Assembly: GCA_000310025.1 (NCBI GenBank) | Contig: FN649741.1 | Location: 83,262-147,261, forward strand | Origin: Ectocarpus siliculosus | Lineage: Eukaryota > Sar > Phaeophyceae > Ectocarpales > Ectocarpaceae | Direction of reading: 5' to 3' | DNA: 64,000 nucleotides | In this document: positions 16,911 to 64,000 of the stretch, piece after piece | Layout of the letters: each line of letters starts with the position of its first letter | Position numbering within the stretch: the stretch's first letter is position 1 | Notes under the pieces: generated by a model | Databases searched by the model: none | Seen by the model: the letters and a program-made list of their open reading frames with translations, nothing else | What the model was told of the DNA's origin: nothing | Translations under genes and position numbers: made by a program

Positions 16911-19720
16911 TTAGCCGAGGATGTCGGCCGGGTTAATCAGCTCCTGGACCAGCATGCCGGCGATGCCGATCATGGCCAGGCGGCCGTTGTTGAGCTCCTT
17001 GGTCTTCATCACGTCCAGAGCCGCCTCGTCCTCGGGCTTGAGGTTGAGGGGGTCAAAGCCGAGGTCTCCCGGGACGTAGTCCTCCTTCAGGCCGCCCTCG
17101 CCGGTCACAGCGCTGGGGGTCTCGAAGGCGGTCATGATGGTGTTGTACTCGATGAAGGCCATGCCCAGGAGGGAGAACACCCAGAACTGTGGCGAAGCGA
17201 GCGTCAGGGGTGCATCGGCGATGTGAGGATACAGATGATATGATGACTAGTTCGGCAGTCCGCATACATCAACATGTTAAATAGAAGAAGATCAGTAAGG
17301 TTCGTTTGTACCTCGAGCGAGGAGGAAATAAATACATTGGTATGAATGATGAGGAACATCAGGTTCGAGGAACACATTCGTTCCCATTTGTGACAGGAAA
17401 GGGGCTATACCCGAAACGACCAAGATGCTGCTTCCTTCCATACCACCATGTAGCGTACAGGATAGTTCTGCAGGATAGGGTCACAATACATCGTACACCC
17501 ACGAGACTCGACCAAACCAGAGCTAATAGTGTTCGTACGCTTTGTCCGAGCACCATCTCATCTCATGATCCATCATCATCATCGTAGAAAACCTTTTGAC
17601 CGCAACAATCAATATCTGTTCGCTATTTTCAACACAACGTATGAAGAAACGACAAACCAGGCAGGGCTGTCCGCGGTGATTACTATTTTTTTTGGTTTGG
17701 CGAAGACGTTCGGGTGGGCCTCTTTTCTTTCTCACCAAAGTATGCATGCATATACCGTAGATAGATAGATGTGATGACAAGAAAAAAACTGCGTGTAACC
17801 ACAAAAGTAGGGAGGTTATTGCGCATCTCAATAGCGCGCATGTTTTCGCTCCGGTGGTCCTCGTGCAGTAGGAGGAACACATCGCGACCACGCTCTATAG
17901 GCTATTGATAACGCTCATGACATACATAGTAATAGTAGTCGGGCTTTTCACGATGCCTTCAAGCGGGGTCGCGCGCGTATGTACATTCTATCTACAAGTA
18001 GATGTAATATTTTTTGCAAAATTTATGATTAAATGTCTCAAAACTATGGAGGACTCGTCATTTCTACCGGCCGAGTAGGATATGTGCAATGCGCTAACAG
18101 CAGTGTGTTGGCGGCGACTGAGTGAGTTAGCCCTACAGTTTCCCTTTCCTTTTCCAAAAACAAAAACCTGAGCCTCGACTTTCGATGCTTCTTTCTACCA
18201 AGTATCTTGTACCAACCATGGCAAGACTAAATGAAGACGAGTCTCTCTCTTGCAGCAGTAGTTACTATGAGCGGGCCGGCACCACTGCCGCTGCTTCTGT
18301 GCACTCTCTACCGGCAGTAGACCTGCCACATCATCCCTCCCTACTACCTGTCAACCAGACGCGCTTCACTTGGGCTACACTTGAGTCATTTAGGTCTTCC
18401 AATCTACTGACACGTCGACGCGACGCCCACACACGCAAACCGACGTCATCATCTGACCTCTGTGACGCACTCGCGTATGCACCCGTTTGACCTGTACACC
18501 ACCGCACACAAAAAAACTGCTCGCTCGCTCAGATTCTCACGACGCTGGCGGAAGAACGTCTTCTATTCGTCCATGTAGCGCTCATCGACGTGAGAGTAGA
18601 GCAATGGCAACTCCAGCGGAAGATTGCACCCCCAGATAGATTTCACAGAAAAGGTTAACGGAAAATGACTCAGAACGAAAAAAAAAAGTTTCGTTTCGCC
18701 AGCAGTGGGTGGGTGAAGATCGTTCCATCGCGGAGAGTTCTGTGTTTGAGCGCACTCACCTCGGGGTACTGCGCGCTGATCTCCTGGAAGTGGTCCACGG
18801 CGGGGCCGATGTAGTCGGGGCCCATGAAGAGAGGGTGGTATTGCTGGAGTGTGCAAGGGCAAAAAGCAAAGGGAGCGAGACGGGAGACAGAGATGGTTAG
18901 CCCGAGGGACCGAAAAACATGAGCAATATGAAAATCGAGGCTGCTTCGAGAAGAAAAGGAGCAACACCCCACATGCGGAGCACGCTGCTTGACGAGCTGC
19001 TACTGCACACGTGTGCGGAGCAGAGCCTCACCTCCGCGACGAGGACACCGAGGGACGCGAGCATGGCCACACGTCCGTGCTTGATCTCGGCCTCGCGCCA
19101 CTTCTTGATGTCGGCGGGGTCAGCCCCGTCCGAGAGGTTGAGGGGGTCGAAGATCTGGCGTGGCGGGCGGTTCGATGAACGGTAGGCCGTCGTGGAACAA
19201 ACGGGGGGGCACGAGTTAGATTCGAGGCAGTAGCGTAGAAGGGCGCACCAAGAGTCTGTGTGGCAGCACGCCATATGCTGCACCACCACGTGGCGAGGTA
19301 AGACCGCAAGTGCGTACGCATGTCCCGATACGGCAGGCGGATCTCGAATTGATCGCTGCTTACGTGTGCGACGTGTGTTGGTTTTGCTCTGTCAGAGAAC
19401 ATCCATGCGAGCGGACACTCTTTTCTCGCCTGCGGTCGACGCAACACAGCTCTACATCGCTGGTCTCATAGCGATGGCACCACGTGGCCACGCAACAGCA
19501 GCTACGGTGGTAGCATTGCGTTGCTGCTCAATGCACTCACCTTTCCATCGCCGAAGGGAGCTCCGGGCAGGGTTGCGACGTAGTCGGATCCAGCGCTCAT
19601 CTTGAGGGCCGAAGAAGAGGAAGCGGGTGCGGCGGATCGCACGGCCATCGGTGCGACGAAGGCAGTCGAAGAGGCGATGAGGGTGGCGGCAGAGCCGAGG
19701 AACAGCTGGGTGGCGACCAT
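16911..19720 (-). CDS. Fucoxanthin-chlorophyll a/c light-harvesting protein, gene 1
   Basis: An antenna protein of the thylakoid membrane that binds chlorophyll a/c and fucoxanthin and passes energy to the photosystems. Four exons: 19720-19541, 19154-19032, 18843-18760, 17186-16911; all introns phase 0 with GT-AG ends; 220 residues, a normal size for this family. The N-terminus ([24 protein letters not shown]) is a bipartite plastid presequence: a hydrophobic signal, then the Phe motif used by stramenopile plastids. Helix 1 holds [14 protein letters not shown] and helix 3 holds [14 protein letters not shown], the paired Glu/Arg chlorophyll-binding motifs. The helix 2 region is [21 protein letters not shown]. 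It shares every intron position with the genes at 25628 and 40007. The start at 19720 is the first Met before the hydrophobic segment. Confidence 0.96.
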
Positions 19721-20279
19721 CTTTGCTAGTGTGTGAGAAGTGTTGGAAAAAATTGAGTGCGCTGGGGATGATGGATGAATTGTGAGTGCTGGGCAGTGGG
19801 GTGGGTCACCACCGGTCTGTCTGGCGGTGGCTTGGGGCGCCGTGGTTTGGGAAATTTTAGATTTTGGTAGGAACCCCCCCTTAGAAAAACAATTAGCGTT
19901 TGCGGGGGACTGGGGGGGGGTAGGGCGCGGGCGAGCGCCACATGCAGATACCTGTACACGATTGCTGTCCTTCAGCAGTAAGAACGCGTGCGTAACTCAG
20001 AAACAACGCACTGGCACCAGAGGAGTGGAGATGATGAAGTGGGAGACCGGTCACAAACCGGTTTGTCTAAATTAATTGACATGCTGTGAGGGATATATAT
20101 GGGCATGAGAACATAATCTATTAGATGAAGCCGGGACACCTTCCTTCCGTGATCGGTCGCAGACTACCTACCCAGGGTACAAGCTGGTGTGTGGTGTGGC
20201 TGGATGGTGGGTGGGTGAGTTCAAAATCATGGGCAATGACTCACACAAGTATTTTTTTGTAGTTCTGCACAGTGGAGCA

Positions 20280-37490: not shown

Positions 37491-38922
37491 TTTTTCAAAG
37501 GGAAATAGACACAAGTGGGTATACCCACCCCTTTCTCGGACAAAAGTGGGTACTCGAAAATCCAGCGCGCGCGCACTCCATAGGCGACCCCCAAACGACT
37601 CAAAACCCCATTCTGACACCTGGGCGACACAGCCAGGGACCATACACAGCACGGGCATCGTTTTTTTCCCACTTCTAGGCACACCTTTGGCCCTAATACC
37701 GCCGACGCGCGCAAGTCCTCACCAGAGTGCCCACTTATGTCCGACATCGCGGTGGGTATACCCACCGGCGTCAACTAATTTTTTCATGTACCCACTTGTG
37801 TCTGTATTTTGACCCACTTTTGTCCAAATTGTACCCACTTTTGTCCACTTACGGACGGCGGAAATCGAGCGGAAATCGACCTCCACGTCACCGCACGGCA
37901 GAACATCGAATAGCCTCGGAACGTCTCAGAACCTCCCAACACCGTATGTATCCATGGCATCTTTCCTATCCATGGCTGCCGACTGCGGACCGACCACGGA
38001 ACATGTCAGAAACATGCCAGACCCCTTCGGTACCGGCACGGGAAGATACCAGGCACGGGAAGATACCCGCGGCAAGCCTACTGTTGTCGTGACGAGTCGG
38101 TGTGCACTCGTCGTGGTGGTTGGTGTTTTTGTGTGTGTGCGTTGTTGCTGTTTGCGCGTCTTTTTGTTCTGTATGCGCGACCCGTTGGTTGTGTTGTCCG
38201 TTGTATGTCACGCATTTATTTGTGGCGTGCCGTTAGTGCGCTGCTTGCCGGGCTTGCCNNNNNNNNNNNNNNNNNNNNNNNNNNNNNNNNNNNNNNNNNN
38301 NNNNNNNNNNNNNNNNNNNNNNNNNNNNNNNNNNNNNNNNNNNNNNNNNNNNNNNNNNCCGTGCCTGGTATCTTCCCGTGCCGGTACCGAAGGGGTCTGG
38401 CATGTTTCTGACATGTTCCGTGGTCGGTCCGCAGTCGGCAGCCATGGATAGGAAAGATGCCATGGATACGGTGTTGGGAGGTTCTGAGACGTTCCGAGGC
38501 TATTCGATGTTCTGCCGTGCGGTGACGTGGAGGTCGATTTCCGCTCGATTTCCGCCGTCCGTAAGTGGACAAACGTGGGTACAATTTGGACAAACGTGGA
38601 TCAAAATACAGACACAAGTGGGTACATGAAAAAATTAGTTGACGCCGGTGGGTATACCCACCGCGATGTCGGACATAAGTGGGCACTCTGGTGAGGACTT
38701 GCGCGCGTCGGCGGTATTAGGGCCAAAGGTGTGCCTAGAAGTGGGAAAAAAACGATGCCCGTGCTGTGTATGGTCCCTGGCTGTGTCGCCCAGGTGTCAG
38801 AATGGGGTTTTGAGTCGTTTGGGGGTCGCCTATGAAGTGCGCACGCGCTGGATTTTCGAGTACCCACTTTTGTCCGAGAAAGGGGTGGGTATACCCACTT
38901 GTGTCTATTTCCCTTTTTCAAA
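37491..38922. mobile_element. Mutator-like DNA transposon with long terminal inverted repeats (gap inside)
   Basis: The element spans 37500-38913 and is flanked by a 9-bp direct repeat TTTTTCAAA (37491-37499 and 38914-38922). Its arms (about 37500-38058 and 38359-38913, roughly 555 bp each) are near-identical inverted copies starting GGGAAATAGACACAAGTGGG, with only scattered differences. Subterminal copies of a GTGGGTAC / ACCCACTTTTGTCC motif, some palindromic (GGGTATACCC), are typical of transposase-binding arrays. Long inverted repeats plus 9-bp target duplications are the hallmark of Mutator-like elements. No transposase is visible. The interior is a 200-bp GT-rich piece (38059-38258) and a 100-N gap, so the true length and coding content are unknown. 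The matching frames in both arms are mirror images, not genes. Confidence 0.85.
38259..38358. other. Assembly gap (100 N)
   Basis: Exactly 100 undetermined bases, a common placeholder for a gap of unknown size. It falls between the two inverted arms of the transposon, as expected when near-identical inverted repeats collapse in assembly. Confidence 0.98.
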
Positions 38923-40006
38923 TCAATTGTTGAATTTCACGGACAGTAGGTGTTTCCCGCCGTTTTTTTGAATTTGCAAAACGTATTTGATCCTTTGGGG
39001 TAACGTATCAGTGATGTTTACAGCAGTAGATGAGAATGGTACACCTGGTGCATGGTAGGTAGGCCATAGCAGTCAGTTTGTATCATGTTAGCTTGTTTCT
39101 TGCTATGTTTGGTGTTGGAAAACAAACACCATCAGTAGAGCACGGAAAGTTTTCAAATGATTTACATCCAATGTGTGTGTGGCGGTTGTTGTCAACTTCC
39201 CTGGTGTTCCTCAGAGCGGTTTGTCGAGATATCTTGTCGCAACCATGTCGTAATCACGTTGTAGAGCATCCGTCATGAAGGTCAGCAGCAGCAGCGAGTA
39301 GCAGTTGGTCTCTCCGTGTGGAGCAGTGGTGTGGACATGTTACGGAGTACGGCGAAGGATACAACACGTAGAAATTACCCACCTGGACGCACAACGATCA
39401 GCAGCGAAGACGATGTGTGTCAGCCACGAGGTCAATATGGGAGAGCACCTTAGCACGAAACCCGATACAGCCTTCTCGCCTTGCCTCAAGTCCTATCGGA
39501 GGGGCTATGTATGTGGTACCACGGCAGGGATCCGAATGCCGACTGCTCCGAACACAATGAATGTTGTGTATGTATGTGTATGTTACGGTGGGAAGGTGGA
39601 GAGGGAAGAGGTTGGGTAGTTGGTTCATCGGGTGTGTGAATTTTGTCTGTCTGCCTGTCCTCCCTCTGTCTGTTTCTCCAATATCAACGTTTAATCAGCG
39701 AAAGAGACGGAGACAGCATCGGGGCGCACCAGCGAAGATATGCACTGACTGTCTGACTGTACACCAACAATGACGTGAAATGCGGCGCAAAAGGTAATTT
39801 TAAAATCCAACGGCGAGGGCCATTGGCTGTGAAGGATGCGGCGGAATAAACACACCGCAGAAACCATGACGCAGCAAAGTTTCAACGCGCCAACTCAGAC
39901 CCTTTTCTGCTTCGGCGCGAACACTGGTCATCCCCACCCGCCCACCCAAGTCACAACCTTCACCTTTCCCTCTCTCATCTTCCACACATCCTACCCAATA
40001 AGCAAG
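38923..40006. other. Intergenic region and 5' flank of LHC gene 3
   Basis: No gene is recognised. The last 60 bases before the start codon are C/T-rich (CTTTCCCTCTCTCATCTTCC), consistent with a leader. A CCATTGG inverted CCAAT-type motif lies near 39829 but its role is unproven. Confidence 0.4.
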
Positions 40007-42005
40007 ATGGTCGCCTCCCAGATGTTCCTCGGCACTGCCGCTGCCCTCATCGCCTCCTCGACTGCCTTCGTCGCACCCGTGGCCGTGCGATCTGCGGCAC
40101 CAGCGTCCGCTGCTTCGGCCCTCAAGATGAGCGCTGGGTCCGACTACGTCGCAACCCTGCCAGGGGCTCCCTTCTCGGATGGAAAGGTGAAACATAACCA
40201 GCCATGTGCGACGAAATCGCCACATGAGTGTCTGATCTGCATCGAGATGTGGAAGGTCGTGCGCCGTGTCATTTTTTTTACCCTTGGAGCTCGGTTTCAA
40301 ACGGTGTCCGCAGAAGAGAAATCGGCGACATGCCCAGCTTTGGGTTTGGATAGTGTGGCGTGGCTTTGGACGCGGTGCCGGTACTATTTACGGCTCTGCT
40401 CTCCGCCTGGGGTCCGGATCTGCTGTACATGTTGCACACAGTCTGCATCTGACTCAAGAAAATGATGAACTCGCACTGCCTGTGATGTAGTCTACGAAGT
40501 ACGCAGTACGCACGAGTACGTGTTCTGTTTCTGCCTCCGTTGACTGTATCTACGGCTACCTTCGGTACCCAGCCCCTTTGTTTACGTCTACTGATTTCCA
40601 TGAGAATAGTTCTTTGCTGGTGTCGGGGAGGCGTGTAATCCGCTCTGACTGAGTACCTTCACACCTGACATATGGGTATTTCCATGTTTGTTTCTGACTG
40701 TTTCACCCGCTCGCAACGCGTCCTGCCGTTGTTGTTTTTTGTTTCAAGATTTTCGACCCTCTCAGCTTGTCGGATGGCGCTGCCCCCGGCGACATCAAGA
40801 AGTGGCGCGAGGCCGAGATCAAGCACGGGCGCGTGGCCATGCTTGCGTCCCTCGGGATTCTTGTCGCAGAGGTAAGCTCCCATTCGAAGTAGTCTTAAGA
40901 GCGGAAGGGATGTGTGGTGTTGAGAACCGAAGTGTGATGGGTTGTGCGAGCTTGTACCCTTTGAATGCCGTTTACCCTTCTTGGATACTACTGTGGTTTC
41001 AAGTGAGAATGAGCGTGGACATTGTGGAGGTGATAGCTTGTGAATTTGAGGCTCGACAGCGAGAAATTCGACTCTTGCCTTGTCTCGTGCTTTCTCAAGA
41101 CTCGCTGAAAAATCTCGCGTAGAATACGACCACTCACTTGTGTGGTAGGGACGCAGTATATACGTGCTTTCCATCGTGTCGATGCAGTCTGTTTTTCGTT
41201 TTCCAGTCAAGCAAATCGAGGTATGCTGGTTCAACCGACAGTTGAAAAGTGCGTTTTTCTCCTTCCTGCAGAATCATGTACTGCTATATTTACCTGGTAC
41301 ACTTTAGTGACGAGATCATCCACCCGTTGACTAGGCATGTGACAAAATATGTGCTTACCCCTCCCGCTTGCGTCGACGCCCCGTGCCGTCCGCAGGAGTA
41401 CCACCCTCTGTTCATGGGTAAAGATTTCATCGGCCCGGCCATCATCCACTTTCAGGAGATCTCTGCGCAGTTCCCCGAGGTATGAGAACGTTTGATGTCT
41501 ACAAGAACTTAACGTTCTCTCGTGTCACATCACAGTGCCGCAGAGCGATCAGCACGTACGGCATTACATAGGTGGTGCGTTTTCGGTGCAATGCCGCCAT
41601 CTACGGCTCCCGTGCCGTTGTTCCCACTGCACCATGCAGTACACCCGAACATCCCTTTTCGCCTCTCTGTTCCTCACTTCCCCTCACCCATATTACCTCA
41701 TGTCTCCCAAACCTCAGTTCTGGGCGTTCTCCCTCCTGGGCATGGCCTTCATCGAGTACAACACCATCATGACCGCCTTCGACACCCCTAGCGCTGTCAC
41801 CGGCGAGGGCGGCCTGAAGGAGGACTATATCCCGGGAGACCTCGGCTTCGACCCCCTCAACCTCAAGCCCGACGGTGAGGCGGCTCTGGACGTGATGAAG
41901 ACCAAGGAGCTCAACAACGGCCGTTTGGCCATGATCGGCATCGCCGGCATGTTGGCGCAGGAGCTGGTCAACGGGCAGGACATCCTCCCCAACTTTTTCT
42001 TCTAA
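40007..42005 (+). CDS. Fucoxanthin-chlorophyll a/c light-harvesting protein, gene 3
   Basis: Thylakoid antenna protein, an intact paralogue of the genes at 16911 and 25628. Exons: 40007-40186, 40749-40871, 41396-41479, 41718-42005; GT-AG introns, all phase 0; 224 residues. The presequence [24 protein letters not shown] gives a signal peptide plus the Phe plastid motif; the mature part begins near [20 protein letters not shown]. Helix 1 has [14 protein letters not shown] and helix 3 has [14 protein letters not shown] with the chlorophyll-binding Glu/Arg pairs. The C-terminus ([12 protein letters not shown]) differs from the other two (INPADILG and [11 protein letters not shown]), so products could be told apart. 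Its exon lengths match gene 1 except for the last exon. Confidence 0.96.
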
Positions 42006-44234: not shown

Positions 44235-47200
44235 CTACATTCCTACTTCCTCGGGCGTCTTCGTGTCTAGGGTAACCGCGTGTACTATTTTCATTTCGTC
44301 GGCCATGAGGCCGTACACGGATCGGTGCCGCTTCAACAGCGTCAGGCCCTCGAAGGATTTGCTGACGATGTTAATCATGAACTTGGACTCTTCCCCGCCT
44401 GACTCGTCCTCGATGACCAGCTTCAACGGCTCCAGCTTTTGCAGCCTAGGAATAAGACAGGCCGTAGACAAGCGAATATAGCAGGTCAGACGGGATAAAG
44501 TGATGCGATGGACAACAGTAAAGGGGGGGGGGGTCGGCGTACTCTTATGTTTTGCATGCCTTAGCGGTTAGACCATTGACCACGAGTCCTCGAGAGGACG
44601 GAGCATTGTTCTCACAGGACCGATCACCGATGGTCAACCGTTCAACCTACTTTGCCGAAGGTCGCTCATAAATGTTTTCCCTAGCCTATCGATCCTATCG
44701 ACATCACTTCTCCCCCTCTCAACCCACTTCCTATGTCCTAGTACAGCTACCGTCTTCTCCTGGCTGTTCCATGCCATAAACATCTTCCTCTACCTTCCTT
44801 CTACTGTTCCCAGCTCAGGCATGTACACTTCCCTCCCCTTGTACAACGGATATTCCATAATTACATGAACACGGTCTTCGCACTCGGAGCCGCATTCACA
44901 TTTGAACTTGTCGTCTTCAGGTCTACCTTCCTAAATCTTCGTCTACGTTCTCGAAGGCCAATGTACCTGGTCCTGATTTTGACCTCCCGCTTTGCCCCTG
45001 CATCCATTGGTCCATGTAGGTAGTCCTTGAACCGTATTCCTTCTTTAACATGCCGTACACTTCTAGACCGTCCTTATCCTTGGTTTCTTTGGTTTTATAT
45101 TATGTTCTTCTCTCTCGGCAAAAGCGACAGATATCTTCTCCTTGAACACCCTTGGACCCTCCGTTTCCGGCGTGTCACCTTCGTCAGTTTCGAACCCCTT
45201 CCATTCGTCATCTACAACCTTGAACCATTCCGTGGGTTGTCTACCCCTCTTGTTTGACCACTTCGCTCCCAAGCTATTCTCGGCAACCTCTCCTCTCCCA
45301 TACCGCACATGCGGTACAGCAGTACTGCCACGTTAGCTTCCTTGCGTCTTTTCCCGATCGTAGGGATTTGGATCCACAATTCTGCCCTGAGGGCTGCATT
45401 GCTTGTGCGCTGGGACCATCCTAAGGATGGTTTTCGCTGCTTTCATCTGCGCCGCCTCGAGCTCGTTGGCTACCTTCATATTTCCTCCCATACTTCTCCG
45501 GCGTACTCTAGCGGCGGTACGATAACGCTCTTCAAAACTGTCTACTTGATGCGTATATCGAGGTGCCGGTTTGCGAGCATTGGGTGCAGCTTTCCTGCTC
45601 GTGCTTTGCCCCTTTCCGCTACCTTGGACACGTATGCATTCCACAAACAGTCTATTGCGATCTCTACCCCAAGATATGTGTACTGATCCATTACCGCAAG
45701 CTCATCGCCCTACACGTCCATCTATACTCTACCGGTTCCTCCCTGTCCTCGTTGCATACCATGACGGCACTCTTCTAACGTTGGCAGACAATCTTCACCT
45801 ATATCAGCAAAACCCTTCGCTGCGTCAATCTGCAGTTGAAGTCCCTCAGGGTATTCAGACATCCCAAAAAAACAACCGCAAACAGCATTCCCGACACCCA
45901 AGATTCCCCTGCCTTTACTCCCTTCCCAACTGTCTCTACGAGCTACAACAGATCCTATATGAACACCTCGAACAATGTTGGGGACAAAATGCAACCTTGT
46001 GGGAACCCCTGTTCAATGTTGAAGAACTTCATTTCTCCGTCAAGCATGACAGCGCGTTTCGTACACTCTTGTCATTTTCTTCAGCACTCTCCACATTTTC
46101 CCCTTTATCCTGTCCTTTGACAACTGCTCCCACAGCCCATTTCTCCACACCGTATAGTATGCCTTTTGGGGATGGTATTTTTTTGTGGTGGCATTTCCGC
46201 ACGAAAAAATACCGTTCAGAATTTGACGGAAAGGAACTTGAACCAGAACCCGCAAATACTAACAGTTGACCAAAAGGGTCCCCAGCCCGTTTTCTTACCA
46301 ATATCTGCAACACCTGTCACCGTAGCAAATTACACCAAAACAAGGTCCTATGAGCGATGGTGATTACCACGGGATGAAAGCCAACCTGAGGACGAGAGTA
46401 ACGGTAAGCCTGGGGTTCACCGTCTCTGTCCCGGCAACAGACACACGACGCGAATCCTCCAATACATCGTCCGATAAACATTGCGCTTTTTCGTCTGTCC
46501 CGGAAACGTAACCAGTGGTGACGTTCACGGCATGCTAAGCCAACTACGGATTGATTGCTCCGCTCTCTCACTTTTCGGTTATCCGTGATGCCATCGTCCC
46601 GCTTTGCTCCGGCTCCTCCGCTGCCGCTTCTTCCGCCGCCGGGGCTGCTTGCTCCACAGCCGCGCGGATGGCCGACTCGCCGCCCAACGCTAGCGCCTTC
46701 CCCTTCATCGTCCGTAGCATGTTGATGAACCCGTTGTTTCGCCTGCGTGCAGTAGCGGCGATGCAAAGTGCGTTTAGGTGCGTGCTCGGCAGGGTACTCA
46801 ACGCAGAAGCACGCAGCACAAGCCGCCTAAACTTGGGGCCGGACCAAGCACATGTGTTCCATGCCCGACGTAAGTGTAACATGAATAGGGGCGCTATACA
46901 GGACGGGGTCATGTCGCAAACACTGTTAGTGTAGTCTGTGCCGACTCTCGTGTACTAGTAAACACATAAAACAGGATATTGTCGTTTGTGCCGACTTTCA
47001 TGTCGGAAACACTGAATACTGGGTTTTGCAGTCTGCGCCGACTCTCTACAGGCGATCAAGTACCCTACGGAGATACGAGTTATCTTCCTCCATACATCGC
47101 CTCCGCGAACCCACAAAACCATACACCAGCCGCATCAAGATGCCGACGTGATGTGCGCTCCAGCAGGTAAAAAAATTACGACGACAAGAGCGGCTGACAA

Positions 47201-48739
47201 CACTTTCATACGGAAGCGGCCGATCGCAAAATGAAATGCAACACCAGTAGGGGCTTGGCGGATGTCACGGTGTCTAGAAGCCCACGTTGATTGGTGCGCT
47301 CTGCAATACTATGGACATTTGGAGCCTCCATCGCGCCTCGCCCTTTTTGGTGCGGTCAAAGCAGATATCGCACCCATCGAGCACCTTGAAAATAGAAGTA
47401 GTAGCCTTTAAAGGCGTCTTTCTACAGCTCCAATAAACCATAACAGGGCATCAACGACCAGGACAATCGTTTTGGATGATAGGACAAGCGCGGCGTACAT
47501 ACCCGGCAGTGAGGCTGGCCTGAAGGCCGGCCACTTGGATGAACTCTGGCTTGACGGTCTGGATGGCCTCCGGCGAGTTGCCGGAAAGGCCCATCGCGAG
47601 AAGGCCTGCCAACCCCTTGGTGATCATCGCGTCCGAGTCCGTGGAGTAGTAGATTAGGCCATCCTTCACCTCCGCCGCAACGTACACGGTCGAGAGGCAC
47701 CTGGAACAACGAAGTTGACGAGATCAAGGCCGTTGCCAAAGCCAAGCGAACGGCGATAAGAGACGCGTTGCTCAACTACACTCACTATCGCTCGGATTTC
47801 CACGATGTTCGCCACAGCACTACTCCCCAAGCTTCGTGTTTTGCGTTGGTTGCTGCTGCCATACACTACGCCCTTTGGGCAGGTGCAGGGTTCAATAGAT
47901 GCAGATACGCCCTGTGATCCTTTGTTGTCGCAGCCAACGACGGATGTGCGAAGACCTCGCGTCGTTCGCCCTGTCGACACGTCACGTGTGTGTTGCAAGT
48001 CTTGGCAGCCCGGTACAGGCAGTGGTACAGCTTGCATTCGCCCACGTACTGGTTCCTGCTGTGAACGTTGGAGCTCTAACTAATGCCACCACATACAAGT
48101 CTCGCTACTGCTGACGAAAGCTTCAACACGCAAAAGCGTCCAGTCTACACGTCTAGACTACAGCAATAGTATAGACTTGCTGTGCCGAAAGGACCGCCGC
48201 TGGCGTCCGACTTCAACTCTTCGTCCAAGCAGTTTACCGCATCACATACCAGAATCCTACATCATGTGTTCATGTTTCGCTGGAGAACAGTTGCCACCTA
48301 GACCAAAGCCGTACCCACGTTGCTTCTAAAACATGTTTCCACGCCCTACAGGTAGTATACCTCACCCCAAGACCTTGTTCTCCTCTGTCTGGAGAGCCGG
48401 GTCCATCTTGTCGCCCATCTGCGCGAGGTGCAGGAGCTGCATCTGTCGCATCTTGTCCGTGGGACAAGACCTGAACACCTTCGTCAACCTTTCCAGCTCC
48501 GGGGTCAGCCCCAACTCCTTCAGGTCAGTGGATGTCGACATGAGAGGGGCATCGCGTCCGCTACGGGCTGGTTCAGCAGCACGAGCTGCTGGTCGTCTCA
48601 GGCGTGCGGCCTGTGCTGCTCTGTGAGACGAAAACGCCCCGCCTGGCACTACTGCGACGTTGGGCGTCACAAAGGCCTCGCCGACCGAGCACACGCTGGT
48701 CGTCAAGGCGACCGACAAAATTGCTGCTCGTGCAACCAT
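44235..48739 (-). CDS. Plastid SufE-BolA fusion protein (cysteine desulfurase activator)
   Basis: SufE takes sulfur from the cysteine desulfurase SufS/NFS2 and stimulates it; plant SUFE1 carries a C-terminal BolA domain that binds monothiol glutaredoxins. Exons: 48739-48366, 47700-47503, 46742-46572, 44445-44235; all phase 2, GT-AG; 954 nt, 317 residues. The presequence is MVARAAILSVALTTSVCSVG then EAF-VTP, a signal peptide with the stramenopile Phe motif. The SufE domain includes LLHLAQMGDKMDP, TEENKVLGCLSTVYVAA (the Cys of GCLS is the catalytic residue, just after intron 1), YYSTDSDAMITKGLAGLLAM and AGRNNGFINML. An Ala/Glu linker leads to MASRITEKLQKLEP and the BolA domain: LVIEDESGG, SKFMINIVSKSFEGL, LLKRHRSVYGLM and VHAVTLDTKTPEEVG. 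Intron 3 (46571-44446) holds a LINE fragment. If exon 3 is read through, a stop three bases past the donor would give a SufE-only form. Confidence 0.93.
44530..46170 (-). mobile_element. 5'-truncated, inactive LINE (non-LTR retrotransposon) copy A
   Basis: The minus strand encodes, with frameshifts and stops, reverse transcriptase segments in order: KAYYTVWRNGLWEQL, IKGKMWRVLKKM, FFNIEQGFPQGCILSPTLFE (followed by an in-frame stop), PEGLQLQIDAAKGFAD, MDQYTYLGVEIAIDCLWNAY and KVANELEAAQMKAAKTIL. A C-terminal Cys/His-type segment (CECGSECEDRVHVIMEYP) follows. The catalytic Asp-Asp box is not readable. The 3' part is shared with copy B at 55540. It sits in intron 3 of the SufE-BolA gene, in the same orientation as the gene. 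The 5' boundary is approximate. Confidence 0.85.
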
Positions 48740-53883: not shown

Positions 53884-56800
53884 ATGGACTCTCCATCTCC
53901 TGGGCTTCATCTCACCAAGTACTTCAGCCCAGCGCACTGCCTGGTCCGAAGAAGGGCCAAGCATGCGACACCGACACCGCCCATCTTCAACCCAGGAAGA
54001 GGCGTGTGCCGAAGGCATGGGCTCGTTGCGATGCTGTTAGTGGCCGACCGATCCAGAGTGGTGGATGCGTTTGGAGGGGTGGCGGTAGGAGTAGCCTCTG
54101 CGCTTCGAGCTGGGTCACCGCCTGGGTCGGAATGCACAGCAGCAGTCGGACTGGCGCCTCCGACGAGCAGCAGCAGCAGCAGCCGGGGCGGGGGGCAGGG
54201 TCGGAGGATGATGGTTCGACCACGCCCGACCACCTTGGCGCCGACGACTGATGCCGGAGAAGACCGAGCTCTTTCAAGGTGAGCAACACGGCTGTTCTTG
54301 GATTGCATGGTGGTGGTACAACTCGGATGTGCACATCTATCAGCTGTGCCTAGCTTTGTACTCGTCCGGCATACGCATACGTGGTTCGTCTGCATGATCG
54401 ATAGCATTAGCATGTGCATCGTACCACTCGGAACACTACAGCAGTATGCAACAGCAGTGTTTGTCATTGAGCCTTCCGCAAATTGACCTGTCTGTGATCC
54501 ATCTATCAAACCTAGCACATCCTCCACCCCACTCCTGCTGCCTACAGCCAGTGTATTGTTAGAGCCTCTGCACCTCTGCTCTCTGTCACTGCATCGCAGC
54601 AGTGAAGCACGCTGCTGCAGTAAGTTGTATCTGAGGATCGACTTTTGAGAGCTACAGCAGAGAGCAGCGATCTGTAGTTGGCAAACTCGAATACAATTGT
54701 AGTGGAACTGAACTACATGTACCGATTTATCGTGGCATCAGCATCTCTTTTTTCACTTCAACCCGATACGTATGAAGTGGCTTTTGCCACTACTTATAAG
54801 AGGACGGGGCCCTCACTGGTGGTATTTTCGGAATCTCACGCCCCCCATATTCGAAACTCGTAGCCGCACGCCTCCTGCGCACTGCGCACCCACACGCACC
54901 ACAGCCAGTAGTCTATGTTTGGATTTTTGTGGTGGCGGCGACAGAGAGGGTGGTCGTGGCATGGAAGGTACATCTTGTTGTAACGAAGAAGGAAAGGGAA
55001 GAAAGAATGAAAAAAACAAGGATGGAACCGATGATGGAGAATGGAGAGCATGAGCGTTTCGCCGGAAGACTTGCCGCACAACTAAATAACGCCGCAGGAA
55101 TAGACAGGAGTGGCCAAGGAATAGTCTTAGTGGTCATCCTGGCGAGAGTGGTGGTGAACGTTAGGAGGATAATAAAGCACTCCAAAACGAACACGCGTGC
55201 AACAGAGCAGCCTTGGTAACATGTGCAGCGTCTCTGCTGTTCTACCGTTTCTGTCTTCAATCCGGAGAGTAGCGTAGCCTCCCGAATGACGCTCCCTCAC
55301 AGGGTCCCAGATCATAGCCTTGGGAAACACTTGCGTTTTCAACCGCACAAAGACAAACATATTTTTCATTGGTAAGCCGGTAAGGTCGATGATGTTGATC
55401 TATAAATTACACCATACACACAGAGTTGTGGGCGCCACACGTTATCTTCCAGCAACTGCTGTGTGTGAATTCCTGTACAACAGTAGGCGCAAAGAATTGT
55501 GAAAGCGGTTCGGTGGAGCGGATACGCCCTGGAGGGGGGGGCGTACTCGTATGTTTTGCATGCCTTGGGGGTTAGACCATTGACCACGCGTCCTGGAGAG
55601 GACGGAGCATTGTTCCCACAGGACCGATCACCAATGGCCAATCGTTCCTTCCTACTTTGCCAATGGTGGCTGAAGAATGGCTTCTGTACAATAGTCTCTC
55701 TATCATATTGGTATCACTTCCCGCCTTTTCAACCCACTTCCTATGTCCTACAGAAGTACAGCTACCGTCTTGTCCTGGCTATTCCGTGCCGTAAACATCT
55801 CCCTGTACCTTTCGTCTTGTACAACCGACATTCCGCAACTACATGAACACGGTCTTCGCACTCGGAGCCGCAATCACATTTGAACTTGTCGCCTTCATGG
55901 TCTACCTTCCTAAACCTTCGTCTACGTTCTCGAAGGCCAATGTCCCGGTCCTGAATTTGACCCCCAGCTTTGTCCCTGCATCCAGGTACTCCTTGGACCC
56001 CAGTCGTTCTTTCAACATTCCGTACACTTCTACGAGACGCTCGTTATCCTTGGTTTCTTTGGTTGGATGGTATTATTCTCTTTCGGCAAATGCAGCAGAT
56101 ATCTTCTCCTTGAACCCCTCTAGACCTTCCGTTTCCAACGTATCACCTTCGTCAATTTCGAACCCCTTCCATACGTCATCTACAACCTGGACGCCCTGGG
56201 GGGGGAATGTTCGGTGTTTTCTATTTACTTGCTTCCCCCTGTTCATTTCGCATACTACGCTGTTGTCAACGTTTTTCTTAGTGTTGCGTGTGTTGTTGAA
56301 CCCATCCTACATGAGCCCCGCCGGAATTCGGGTGACTTTACTGCCGTGTGGTATGCATACGCTTATGAATAGTTGTTCTCAAGTTGTACATAAAATACAT
56401 CGCTATCACTTTGGCGAGAAAATATTATTTCTCGCGTGGTGGCCCGAGATCGATGAGGCCTTGCAATGTGAGAATTCCGATGAATATCTGTCGGTATAGT
56501 GTGCATATCAAAACGTTTCCTCCTCAATAGTGGCAAAAGCACCACTATTGGGGCACTATTGGGGTGTCAATAGTGGTGGAATGCAACGATAACGGAATAG
56601 TGATGCTGCCCTCAATAGTGGCATGAGGGTCGTCTGCCCGTAGGCGCCCCTATTGTCGAGCTGCTTTCTGTACTGCTGTCTGCGTACATGTATTGTATCG
56701 CAACCCTTCTCTTCTCCGTCTCCGGACTACAGCAGCAGTTGCAATACAGCAGTACTTGCCATGGCAGCCCACAAGGGCCATACTTACCTCGGCCGGCAAC

Positions 56801-61800: not shown

Positions 61801-63258
61801 GTGAATGCTAAGGCTTCACTAGGCTAAAGATTCACTAGTTTCTTCCCCTCAAGGGTGCTCACGAACAAGTACCTGTTTGAGTCCTGTGCAGAGTAAAGAC
61901 GCCTCGCCGAACCTCGAACTCCCAAAGTAGCACTGTAGCCGTAATGTTTTCGAGGTTGTCGGCTGAACCACCAAGGCGACCGTCTTGTAGTATAGTATAG
62001 CGCACCTGAAAAGGCAATCCACACGACCTCCCCTCGGCGTTTTTTAGCATACCCCTGTAACATCATCACTGTCGTTGCGGTGCCCCCCAAAGCATGGAAG
62101 TCACGACCACCTTCCCGTTGTAGTACTCTAGCCCACCTATGTACCTCCTGTCTCCGTTCCGGTGATTTGATATTATGCTGTGTTCCGCTCTAGGTGTCGT
62201 ACAACACGGCCATCTCCGCCTGCGATAAGCTGCAAGATGCCGAGACGGCCGTGCGGCTGCTACGGCAGGCGAGAGAAGACGACGTCGAGCCTGACGTGTT
62301 CTCGTACAACACCGCCATCAGTGCGCTTGGCCACAGCTGCCAATGGCAGGTCGGTGGGGTGAAACACGCTACGGGAAAATGCACCAGTAGCCTTTTTCAT
62401 GATTTTTCGTTGAAGAAAACGTGTTGGATAAAGCATGCAATCGAGGAAGGAAAGTTGGGTTAGGGTTAGGGATAGGGAATAGGGTCTGCGTACCCCCTCC
62501 CTGTTCTATTTCCACGTAACCTTACTATTTCTCGTGAAGGTGATCCAAATGCCTCCTATTCCTTGCGGGGTTCTATCTTGCATCTGTGCTAGGTGCTCGT
62601 TGTTGGTTTGGCATGAATCAATAAGCTACTTGCGCGACCCAGTTATTTCCGCCTACGTGGACTGTTAGAGACGGTTCCCGTCACCGAAGATTTGGTACAG
62701 AAATGAATCATGAGCGATGCGAATCATGAGCGATGCAGTAGCGGACCGCACAATCGTGGACCGGTAGGCCTTACGTGCTCGAGGAACGCATTGTAAGCCA
62801 GGATTTTACCTTCTCCTCTCGATCATAGCCTTGGCTCAGATTGAGATCAACTGAGACGCCATCCACGTTGGTGGTAGCTGGCGACGCGATGCGATGCGAT
62901 GCGATGCGACCATTACGTCTTCCGTGGTCGCACCCACCCACCCCGGTCATGACGGACTGCTGCACAGGTTCGCTCGCTTGCCACGCTCATGAAGTTCATG
63001 TTACCTTACTTGCTGCTTCTGGTGCTTGGGTGTAACATGCTTGGTTCCGTACGGCTGTGCTGTGCCGCCGCGTTGCGTGTACCCGTCGTGAATCCTCAGG
63101 AGGCCGCTCGAATTTTCGAGGAGATGAACGAGGCAGGTGTGGCACCGTCGCTCATGACATACAACACCCTCATTTCAGGCTGTGTCCGTGCGCAAGCCCC
63201 TAGCGAGGCCCTATCGGTGTTTTACCTCATGAAAGAGAGGGGCATCAAGCGAGATCAG
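53884..63258 (+). CDS. Pentatricopeptide-repeat (PPR) protein, 3' end beyond the traced exons
   Basis: PPR proteins bind organellar RNA through tandem ~35-residue helical hairpins and act in RNA processing, stability or translation. Exons: 53884-54278, 57433-57572, 58096-58343, 58829-59008, 59442-59570, 60267-60362, 61253-61399, 62194-62349, 63100-63258; 550 codons so far, all phases compatible, and the last five traced introns phase 0. Eight P-type motifs are seen, for example FAYNALISGCASGRGYERAL, VSYNTAISACDKLQDAETAV, FSYNTAISALGHSCQW and MTYNTLISGCVRAQAPSEAL. The 63258 donor (CAG then GTGACA) ends at RDQ, just where the next motif would begin, so more exons should follow. The N-terminus is basic with a LVAMLLVADRSRVVDAF segment that may be a plastid or mitochondrial presequence; Met 54031 is an alternative start. 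Exon 1 and exon 2 are joined mainly by phase and context and are less certain. Confidence 0.85.
55540..56185 (-). mobile_element. LINE copy B, severely 5'-truncated
   Basis: It aligns with the 3' 650 bp of copy A (44530 onward): the same CATGCCTT..GGTTAGACCATT end, GAGAGGACGGAGCATTGTTC, the segment encoding the Cys/His-type region and the Glu-rich tail. The match breaks at about 56183. It lies in intron 1 of the PPR gene, antisense to it. Confidence 0.85.
57617..57785 (-). repeat. Interspersed repeat family C, copy in PPR intron 2
   Basis: The plus strand reads GTTGTTGTTGTTGTTATTGG, then GTTCCGATCTGGGCTC, CAACTGACGCGAAGGCCTTT, CCGTGGTGACAGGCTACTGT and a CCCAAAAAGGGACG end. It is the same family as the copies at 9355, 30065 and 51935. 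Confidence 0.65.
58494..58542. repeat. Telomere-like TAGGGTA microsatellite in PPR intron 3
   Basis: Seven units of a 7-bp TAGGGTA repeat, one with a C substitution. It resembles but is not the TTAGGG telomere unit. A short TTAGGG-like run also occurs near 62459-62485 in intron 8. Confidence 0.9.
58757..58818. repeat. CTG tract immediately before a splice acceptor
   Basis: About 20 CTG units, then CTACTGCTGCAG, whose final AG is the acceptor of PPR exon 4 at 58829. The repeat takes the place of the polypyrimidine tract. Confidence 0.9.
60890..60990 (+). repeat. Interspersed repeat family A, fragment in PPR intron 6
   Basis: CCACTTACCTAAAAGACTTC, then ACATCCCTTTGGACTGAGGT and TATACCTCGAACGGGTAGTC with TTTCTGTG, match the left half of the family A copy at 985-1475. 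The right half is absent. Confidence 0.65.
62886..62909. repeat. GCGAT microsatellite in PPR intron 8
   Basis: Five tandem copies of a 5-bp GCGAT unit. Confidence 0.9.
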
Positions 63259-64000
63259 GTGACATTTTTTTTCTTCTTGTCTGGTTTTTGGTCGGGCGGG
63301 GAGGAAAGGCTTGGTTTTCTGGCGCGCGTGTCATGTCTTTCCCAGACAAAGTGCGCTGGGCGAAGGGGTAATCGACTACAACCGAATGCTAGTAAAGACT
63401 TTCTACAAGACTATCAATGGCCGATCATGCAGCTTGAAGGAAGGACCGACAATAAGACACCCATGAAGTTTGGGTCGAAAAGGCAAACGTTGTCGGTTTT
63501 GCCGATACCGCGAGTTGGCCAATCGTTGGGCAGACGTATTGCTATACCCGTGTCTCACGAGACGCTTTGTCCGTTGAAAGTGCACACGAGGAGTTGCAGC
63601 TTAAGTCACTTCTGCAAACTTTGACGATTAGAAACTATCGAGTGACGTGCTTAGTTGATGTTACGTCCAGGAAACGTGGGTACCTTCGGCGACGGCGATA
63701 GTCGTAGAAGGAAAAACATCCGTCGCGTCGGTGGCCCTGGGTCAGACGAGGACGCCGTCTCCCGAGGTATCGGGAGCCGAGTAGGCAACACTACGCGCGG
63801 GCGAGTACCGAACGGGAGCTTTTGCCTACGATACACGGACGGAGATCTTGAAACCAACGTTCCCGTCTGCCGGGGACAATGATTTACCAAGATCTCGAGC
63901 GGTGTATCGTGGGCACCACCTGCCGTCCTGTACTCGCCCACGCGTAGCGCTGGCCACTCGGCTCCCGTTACCTCTGGGGACGGCGTGTACTCGGGGCCGG
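63259..64000. other. Right edge, probably an intron of the PPR gene
   Basis: Follows the donor at 63259. No acceptor followed by a PPR-like frame was found before the window ends. A minus-strand frame at 63651-63941 has no recognisable motif. Confidence 0.4.

Follow-up and report, generated by a model that had tools for sequence, protein, structure and literature searches.

The genome of the brown alga Ectocarpus siliculosus contains a four-exon gene in which a SufE domain is fused to a BolA domain, as confirmed by our analyses, and this is very likely the nuclear gene for the plastid SUFE1 of a secondary-plastid alga, acting as SUFE1 does in Arabidopsis and carrying a LINE remnant as a passive passenger in its third intron. 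The gene lies on the minus strand of the stretch of DNA analysed here (the window), which comprises 64,000 nucleotides of contig FN649741.1. Its parts, two sites in the BolA domain and two LINE copies are the following, in positions of the window:

48366..48739, minus strand: exon 1, with the start codon, an N-terminal presequence and the first part of SufE
47701..48365, minus strand: intron 1, 665 nt, phase 2, donor GTGAGG; retention would give Gly-stop
47503..47700, minus strand: exon 2, further SufE sequence that includes the catalytic Cys (GCLSTVY at codons 125-131)
46743..47502, minus strand: intron 2, 760 nt, phase 2, donor GTATGT; retention would give 17 residues and then a stop
46572..46742, minus strand: exon 3, the end of SufE (GFINMLRTMKGKA), an Ala/Glu-rich linker and the first 8 BolA residues, MASRITEK
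44446..46571, minus strand: intron 3, 2126 nt, phase 2, donor GTGAGA; retention would give Lys-stop
44235..44445, minus strand: exon 4, the BolA domain and the stop codon
44379..44408, minus strand: beta1-beta2 [H/C] loop of BolA, DESGGEESKF, shortened and without His or Cys (from alignment)
44274..44285, minus strand: VHAV, containing the C-terminal His that is conserved in BolA (from alignment)
44525..46140, minus strand, sense to the gene: dead LINE remnant in intron 3 (putative reverse transcriptase and C-terminal region), 3' end set from the second copy, 5' limit approximate
55531..56191, minus strand: second LINE copy; its 3' end is that of the intron copy, with which (intron positions 45223-44525) it aligns over 715 nt at 78.5% identity

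The four minus-strand exons join into 954 nt with a single open frame of 317 amino acids plus a stop, in agreement with the 318 codons of the initial annotation when the stop is counted. All three introns have GT-AG borders and are in phase 2; the first codon of GCLSTVY is split over the exon 1/2 junction, and the last codon of MASRITEK is completed by exon 4. Upstream of the ATG at 48739 an in-frame stop is reached with no other in-frame ATG between. Near the exon 4 acceptor there are two AG candidates, giving exon starts at 44445 and 44435, and by arithmetic only 44445 keeps the frame. The donor of exon 3 and the acceptor of exon 4 do restore the reading frame, as had been proposed, and rejoin the first BolA helix. 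Within intron 2, an imperfect 27-nt repeat occurs three times at intervals of about 50 nt (46927-47050). ARAGORN and Rfam at its gathering threshold gave no match within the window.

The two domains are recognized well above the Pfam cut-offs, which bears out the joining of SufE to BolA in one reading frame: SufE (PF02657) matches residues 88-204 (E 1.9e-31, 108.8 bits, cut-off 27), and BolA (PF01722) matches residues 251-314 of the joined model (E 9.4e-17, 61.5 bits, cut-off 25.7). The catalytic Cys of SufE is present, with GCLSTVY aligned to GCQSQVW of E. coli SufE. The intron was originally placed in the linker between the domains; instead, intron 3 interrupts BolA at its N-terminal edge, within its first helix. 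The match to the start of AtBolA1 already covers residues 241-248 (MASRITEK), which exon 3 encodes, and this homology continues across the exon 3/4 junction (ASRITEK|LQKLEP versus ASRMREKLQKELEP). Removal of intron 3 makes the first BolA helix whole, so SufE and BolA belong to one fused gene.

The order of presequence, SufE and BolA is that of Arabidopsis SUFE1 (At4g26500), with which the algal protein also shares the SufE Cys and the C-terminal His of BolA. The comparison with plant SUFE1 is upheld, and the window also holds ORFs for chlorophyll a/b-binding antenna proteins (PF00504) at 18897-19391 (minus strand, E 4.9e-15) and 41496-42005 (plus strand, E 2.1e-19). Two further ORFs, 19502-19996 and 39833-40465, have a similar N-terminal stretch in common and are themselves without a Pfam match. 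Plastid proteins of heterokonts have a Phe at the signal-peptide cleavage site, and the presequence encoded by exon 1 contains GEAFVTP (48682-48662, minus strand), which we take to be a candidate heterokont plastid-targeting motif; judged from the sequence, SUFE1 is thus presumably targeted to the plastid.

A literature search by SufE-BolA, or by SUFE1 with brown alga, returned no paper. A relevant entry was found separately in a 2021 survey (PMC8003979), which reports that some algae have a SUFE1 without BolA. In its Table 2, absence of the BolA domain is marked by notes a and b; SUFE1 of Phaeodactylum and Aureococcus carries note b, while SUFE1 of Ectocarpus siliculosus, Nannochloropsis oceanica and Ochromonas is entered as '+' with neither note. 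As the Ectocarpus protein is tabulated without the mark for a missing BolA domain, the fusion appears, from this table entry, to be already on record for the brown alga and to be its ordinary SUFE1. The same table lists Ectocarpus without BOL1 or BOL4, with the authors' caution that absences may be assembly faults.

Pairwise scores, which are not a tree, place the SufE part closest to cyanobacterial SufE, as in Arabidopsis SUFE1. Among 30 cyanobacterial SufE proteins the best match reached 47% identity and 121 bits; 22 of them scored at least 105 bits and the other eight 58.5 to 98, and two (60.5 and 58.5 bits) were no better than SufE of Thermus (60.5 bits), with E. coli SufE at 49 bits. For the BolA part, the pairwise scores were 70 bits for AtBolA1, 60 for AtSUFE1, 54 for AtBolA2 and at most 48 for cyanobacterial BolA (best 30 of 79 matches). 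AtBolA1 (PDB 4pug) and AtBolA2 (PDB 2mm9) are 47% and 44% identical to the algal BolA part, respectively; unlike the algal protein, neither is fused to SufE. The fusion was not seen in a sample of 146 cyanobacterial genomes (the phylum of a cyanobacterial MAG), in which BolA was found in 74 genomes, SufE in 66 and both in 64. In these 64 genomes, 33 SufE/BolA pairs lie on one contig, the closest 7.0 kb apart. Likewise, neither of two BolA signatures, which recover 29/30 and 30/30 known BolA loci, was found in the flanks of any of 30 cyanobacterial SufE loci. A scan of genome contigs gave one relative, a cyanobacterial SufE, and a scan of viral contigs gave none.

The dead LINE fragment reported in intron 3 is real. 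The strongest evidence is the second copy in the window, which matches the intron copy with E 6e-176; both copies end at a common 3' end, CATGCAAAACATA.GAGTACGCC, followed by a C-rich run and then by unrelated sequence. The reverse transcriptase match is weaker evidence than the second copy: one intron 3 frame holds GFPQGCILSPTLFEVFI, with an RVT_1 match of 20.7 bits (E 3.6e-4), short of the curated cut-off of 29.6. In its repeated copy with a shared 3' end and in this putative reverse transcriptase stretch the element is like LINE-type non-LTR retrotransposons; it differs from them in being disrupted and in being truncated or at any rate incomplete. The stops and frameshifts in all frames show that it is dead. 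Without the LINE, taking its 5' end at about 46140, intron 3 would be about 0.5 kb long and thus near introns 1 and 2 in size. Elsewhere in the window, a near-perfect inverted repeat occupies 37500-38913, with arms of 448 nt (99%) and 111 nt (100%) around a run of N; an artefact of the assembly or a palindromic element could explain it, and it may extend beyond 37500-39000, the interval searched. A pentatricopeptide-repeat ORF (62953-63624, plus strand, PPR_2 E 1.3e-17) lies near the window end.

The BolA domain departs from its relatives in one loop. As described in PMC6558291, glutaredoxin-BolA pairs hold a cluster to which BolA contributes its C-terminal His together with a His or Cys from the beta1-beta2 loop, the loop ligand being His97 in AtBolA1 and Cys29 in AtBolA2. 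The C-terminal His is present in all 34 aligned rows, including the algal BolA, which also keeps RHR and FEGL. In contrast, every one of the 33 compared rows, of which 30 are cyanobacterial and 3 come from Arabidopsis, carries a His or Cys within the loop stretch, not all of these His being proven ligands, and the algal BolA has none. The cyanobacterial rows are the best-scoring 30 of 79 matches, a choice that favours canonical sequences, and the three Arabidopsis rows, from 20 PDB sequences, are the sole other eukaryotic ones. The algal loop is also shorter than that of AtSUFE1 (DVSYQHAGH...GETHF); its length is like that of AtBolA2, and in the alignment a Glu occupies the place of the AtBolA2 loop Cys. 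As exon 4 runs unbroken through the loop, no alternative choice of exons brings back a ligand, although an assembly error may lie behind the missing His or Cys.

Intron 3 invites two other readings of the locus. The model might wrongly have joined two neighbours, a gene for SufE (exons 1-3) and one for BolA (exon 4), as the two parts are separated by a 2.1 kb stretch bearing a transposon and as SufE and BolA are separate genes in the cyanobacterial sample. However, the start of BolA is divided between exons 3 and 4 and the splice rejoins its frame; moreover, the region upstream of exon 4 has no in-frame ATG back to the last stop. These two observations make it very unlikely that exon 4 stands alone as a gene; in addition, Table 2 of PMC8003979 lists this fusion for Ectocarpus. 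We therefore set the two-gene model aside, primarily on account of the divided BolA start, and regard it as scarcely credible. A structure prediction for exon 4 alone (69 amino acids, no alignment) had a mean pLDDT of 44 and was discarded. The second reading keeps one fused gene but takes intron 3 as a splicing switch, whose retention, or polyadenylation within it, would yield a SufE-only form beside the fusion, the two differing in glutaredoxin control. The initial annotation had called a splicing switch between the two forms conceivable, and its factual basis holds: a TGA does directly follow the exon 3 donor, and retention is predicted to end the protein one codon past exon 3 with SufE complete. 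In addition, intron 3 is the last of the model, leaving no splice junction downstream of the early stop, and the SUFE1 proteins without BolA listed for other algae in Table 2 of PMC8003979 suggest that a SufE-only form could work. Nevertheless, when a phase-2 intron is retained, its bases 2-4 form the next codon to be read, so that a GTAA or GTGA donor inevitably brings an immediate stop (TAA or TGA). Retention of intron 1 would likewise stop at once, before the SufE catalytic Cys, giving a useless product, and retention of intron 2 would give no immediate stop. The stop is thus set by phase and donor and carries no regulatory signal. Neither AATAAA nor ATTAAA occurs in intron 3, and as both are also missing from the 935 nt downstream of the true stop codon, their absence speaks neither for nor against a switch. 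Nothing in our analyses supports a switch; we have set this tempting story aside as unfounded and consider it highly improbable.

If the gene is accepted as a single fusion, its BolA domain might still have lost its function and be drifting, with the loop as one sign of decay; the presence of a loop His or Cys in all 33 compared rows and the algal SUFE1 proteins entirely without BolA reported in PMC8003979 would fit such a course. The retained RHR, FEGL and C-terminal His, the open frame and the 47% identity to AtBolA1 speak instead for selection on the domain, and we consider decay unlikely. The missing ligand does weaken a direct transfer of the Arabidopsis glutaredoxin-cluster model to the alga, and the loop suggests docking of glutaredoxin without full co-ligation of a [2Fe-2S] cluster. 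We tentatively propose, as a possibility that is less likely than not, that the BolA of this SUFE1 kept its glutaredoxin-facing features (RHR and the C-terminal His), lost the loop ligand and recruits glutaredoxin without forming the usual bridged [2Fe-2S] pair.

In the preferred reading, that of a plant-type plastid SUFE1, the conserved Cys of SufE would take persulfide sulfur from the plastid cysteine desulfurase and would hand it on to the SUF scaffold. By analogy with Arabidopsis SUFE1, for which the role of BolA and glutaredoxin is reviewed in PMC5890173, the C-terminal BolA may dock a monothiol glutaredoxin, which may in turn remove glutathione and so keep SufE active. The missing loop ligand would be compatible with such docking without the usual shared cluster. 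The LINE is most simply viewed as a passive, decayed insertion that is presumably spliced out constitutively with intron 3.

Taken together, our analyses add one more well-supported plant-type SUFE1 gene from an alga. If the loop proposal is true and the alga has no stand-alone plastid BolA, as Table 2 of PMC8003979 indicates for Ectocarpus, its plastid would be without any canonical GRX-BOLA cluster heterodimer. Furthermore, the loss of the loop ligand, if common to relatives of this alga, would provide a natural test of whether the BolA domain of SUFE1 serves in cluster sharing or in glutaredoxin recruitment.
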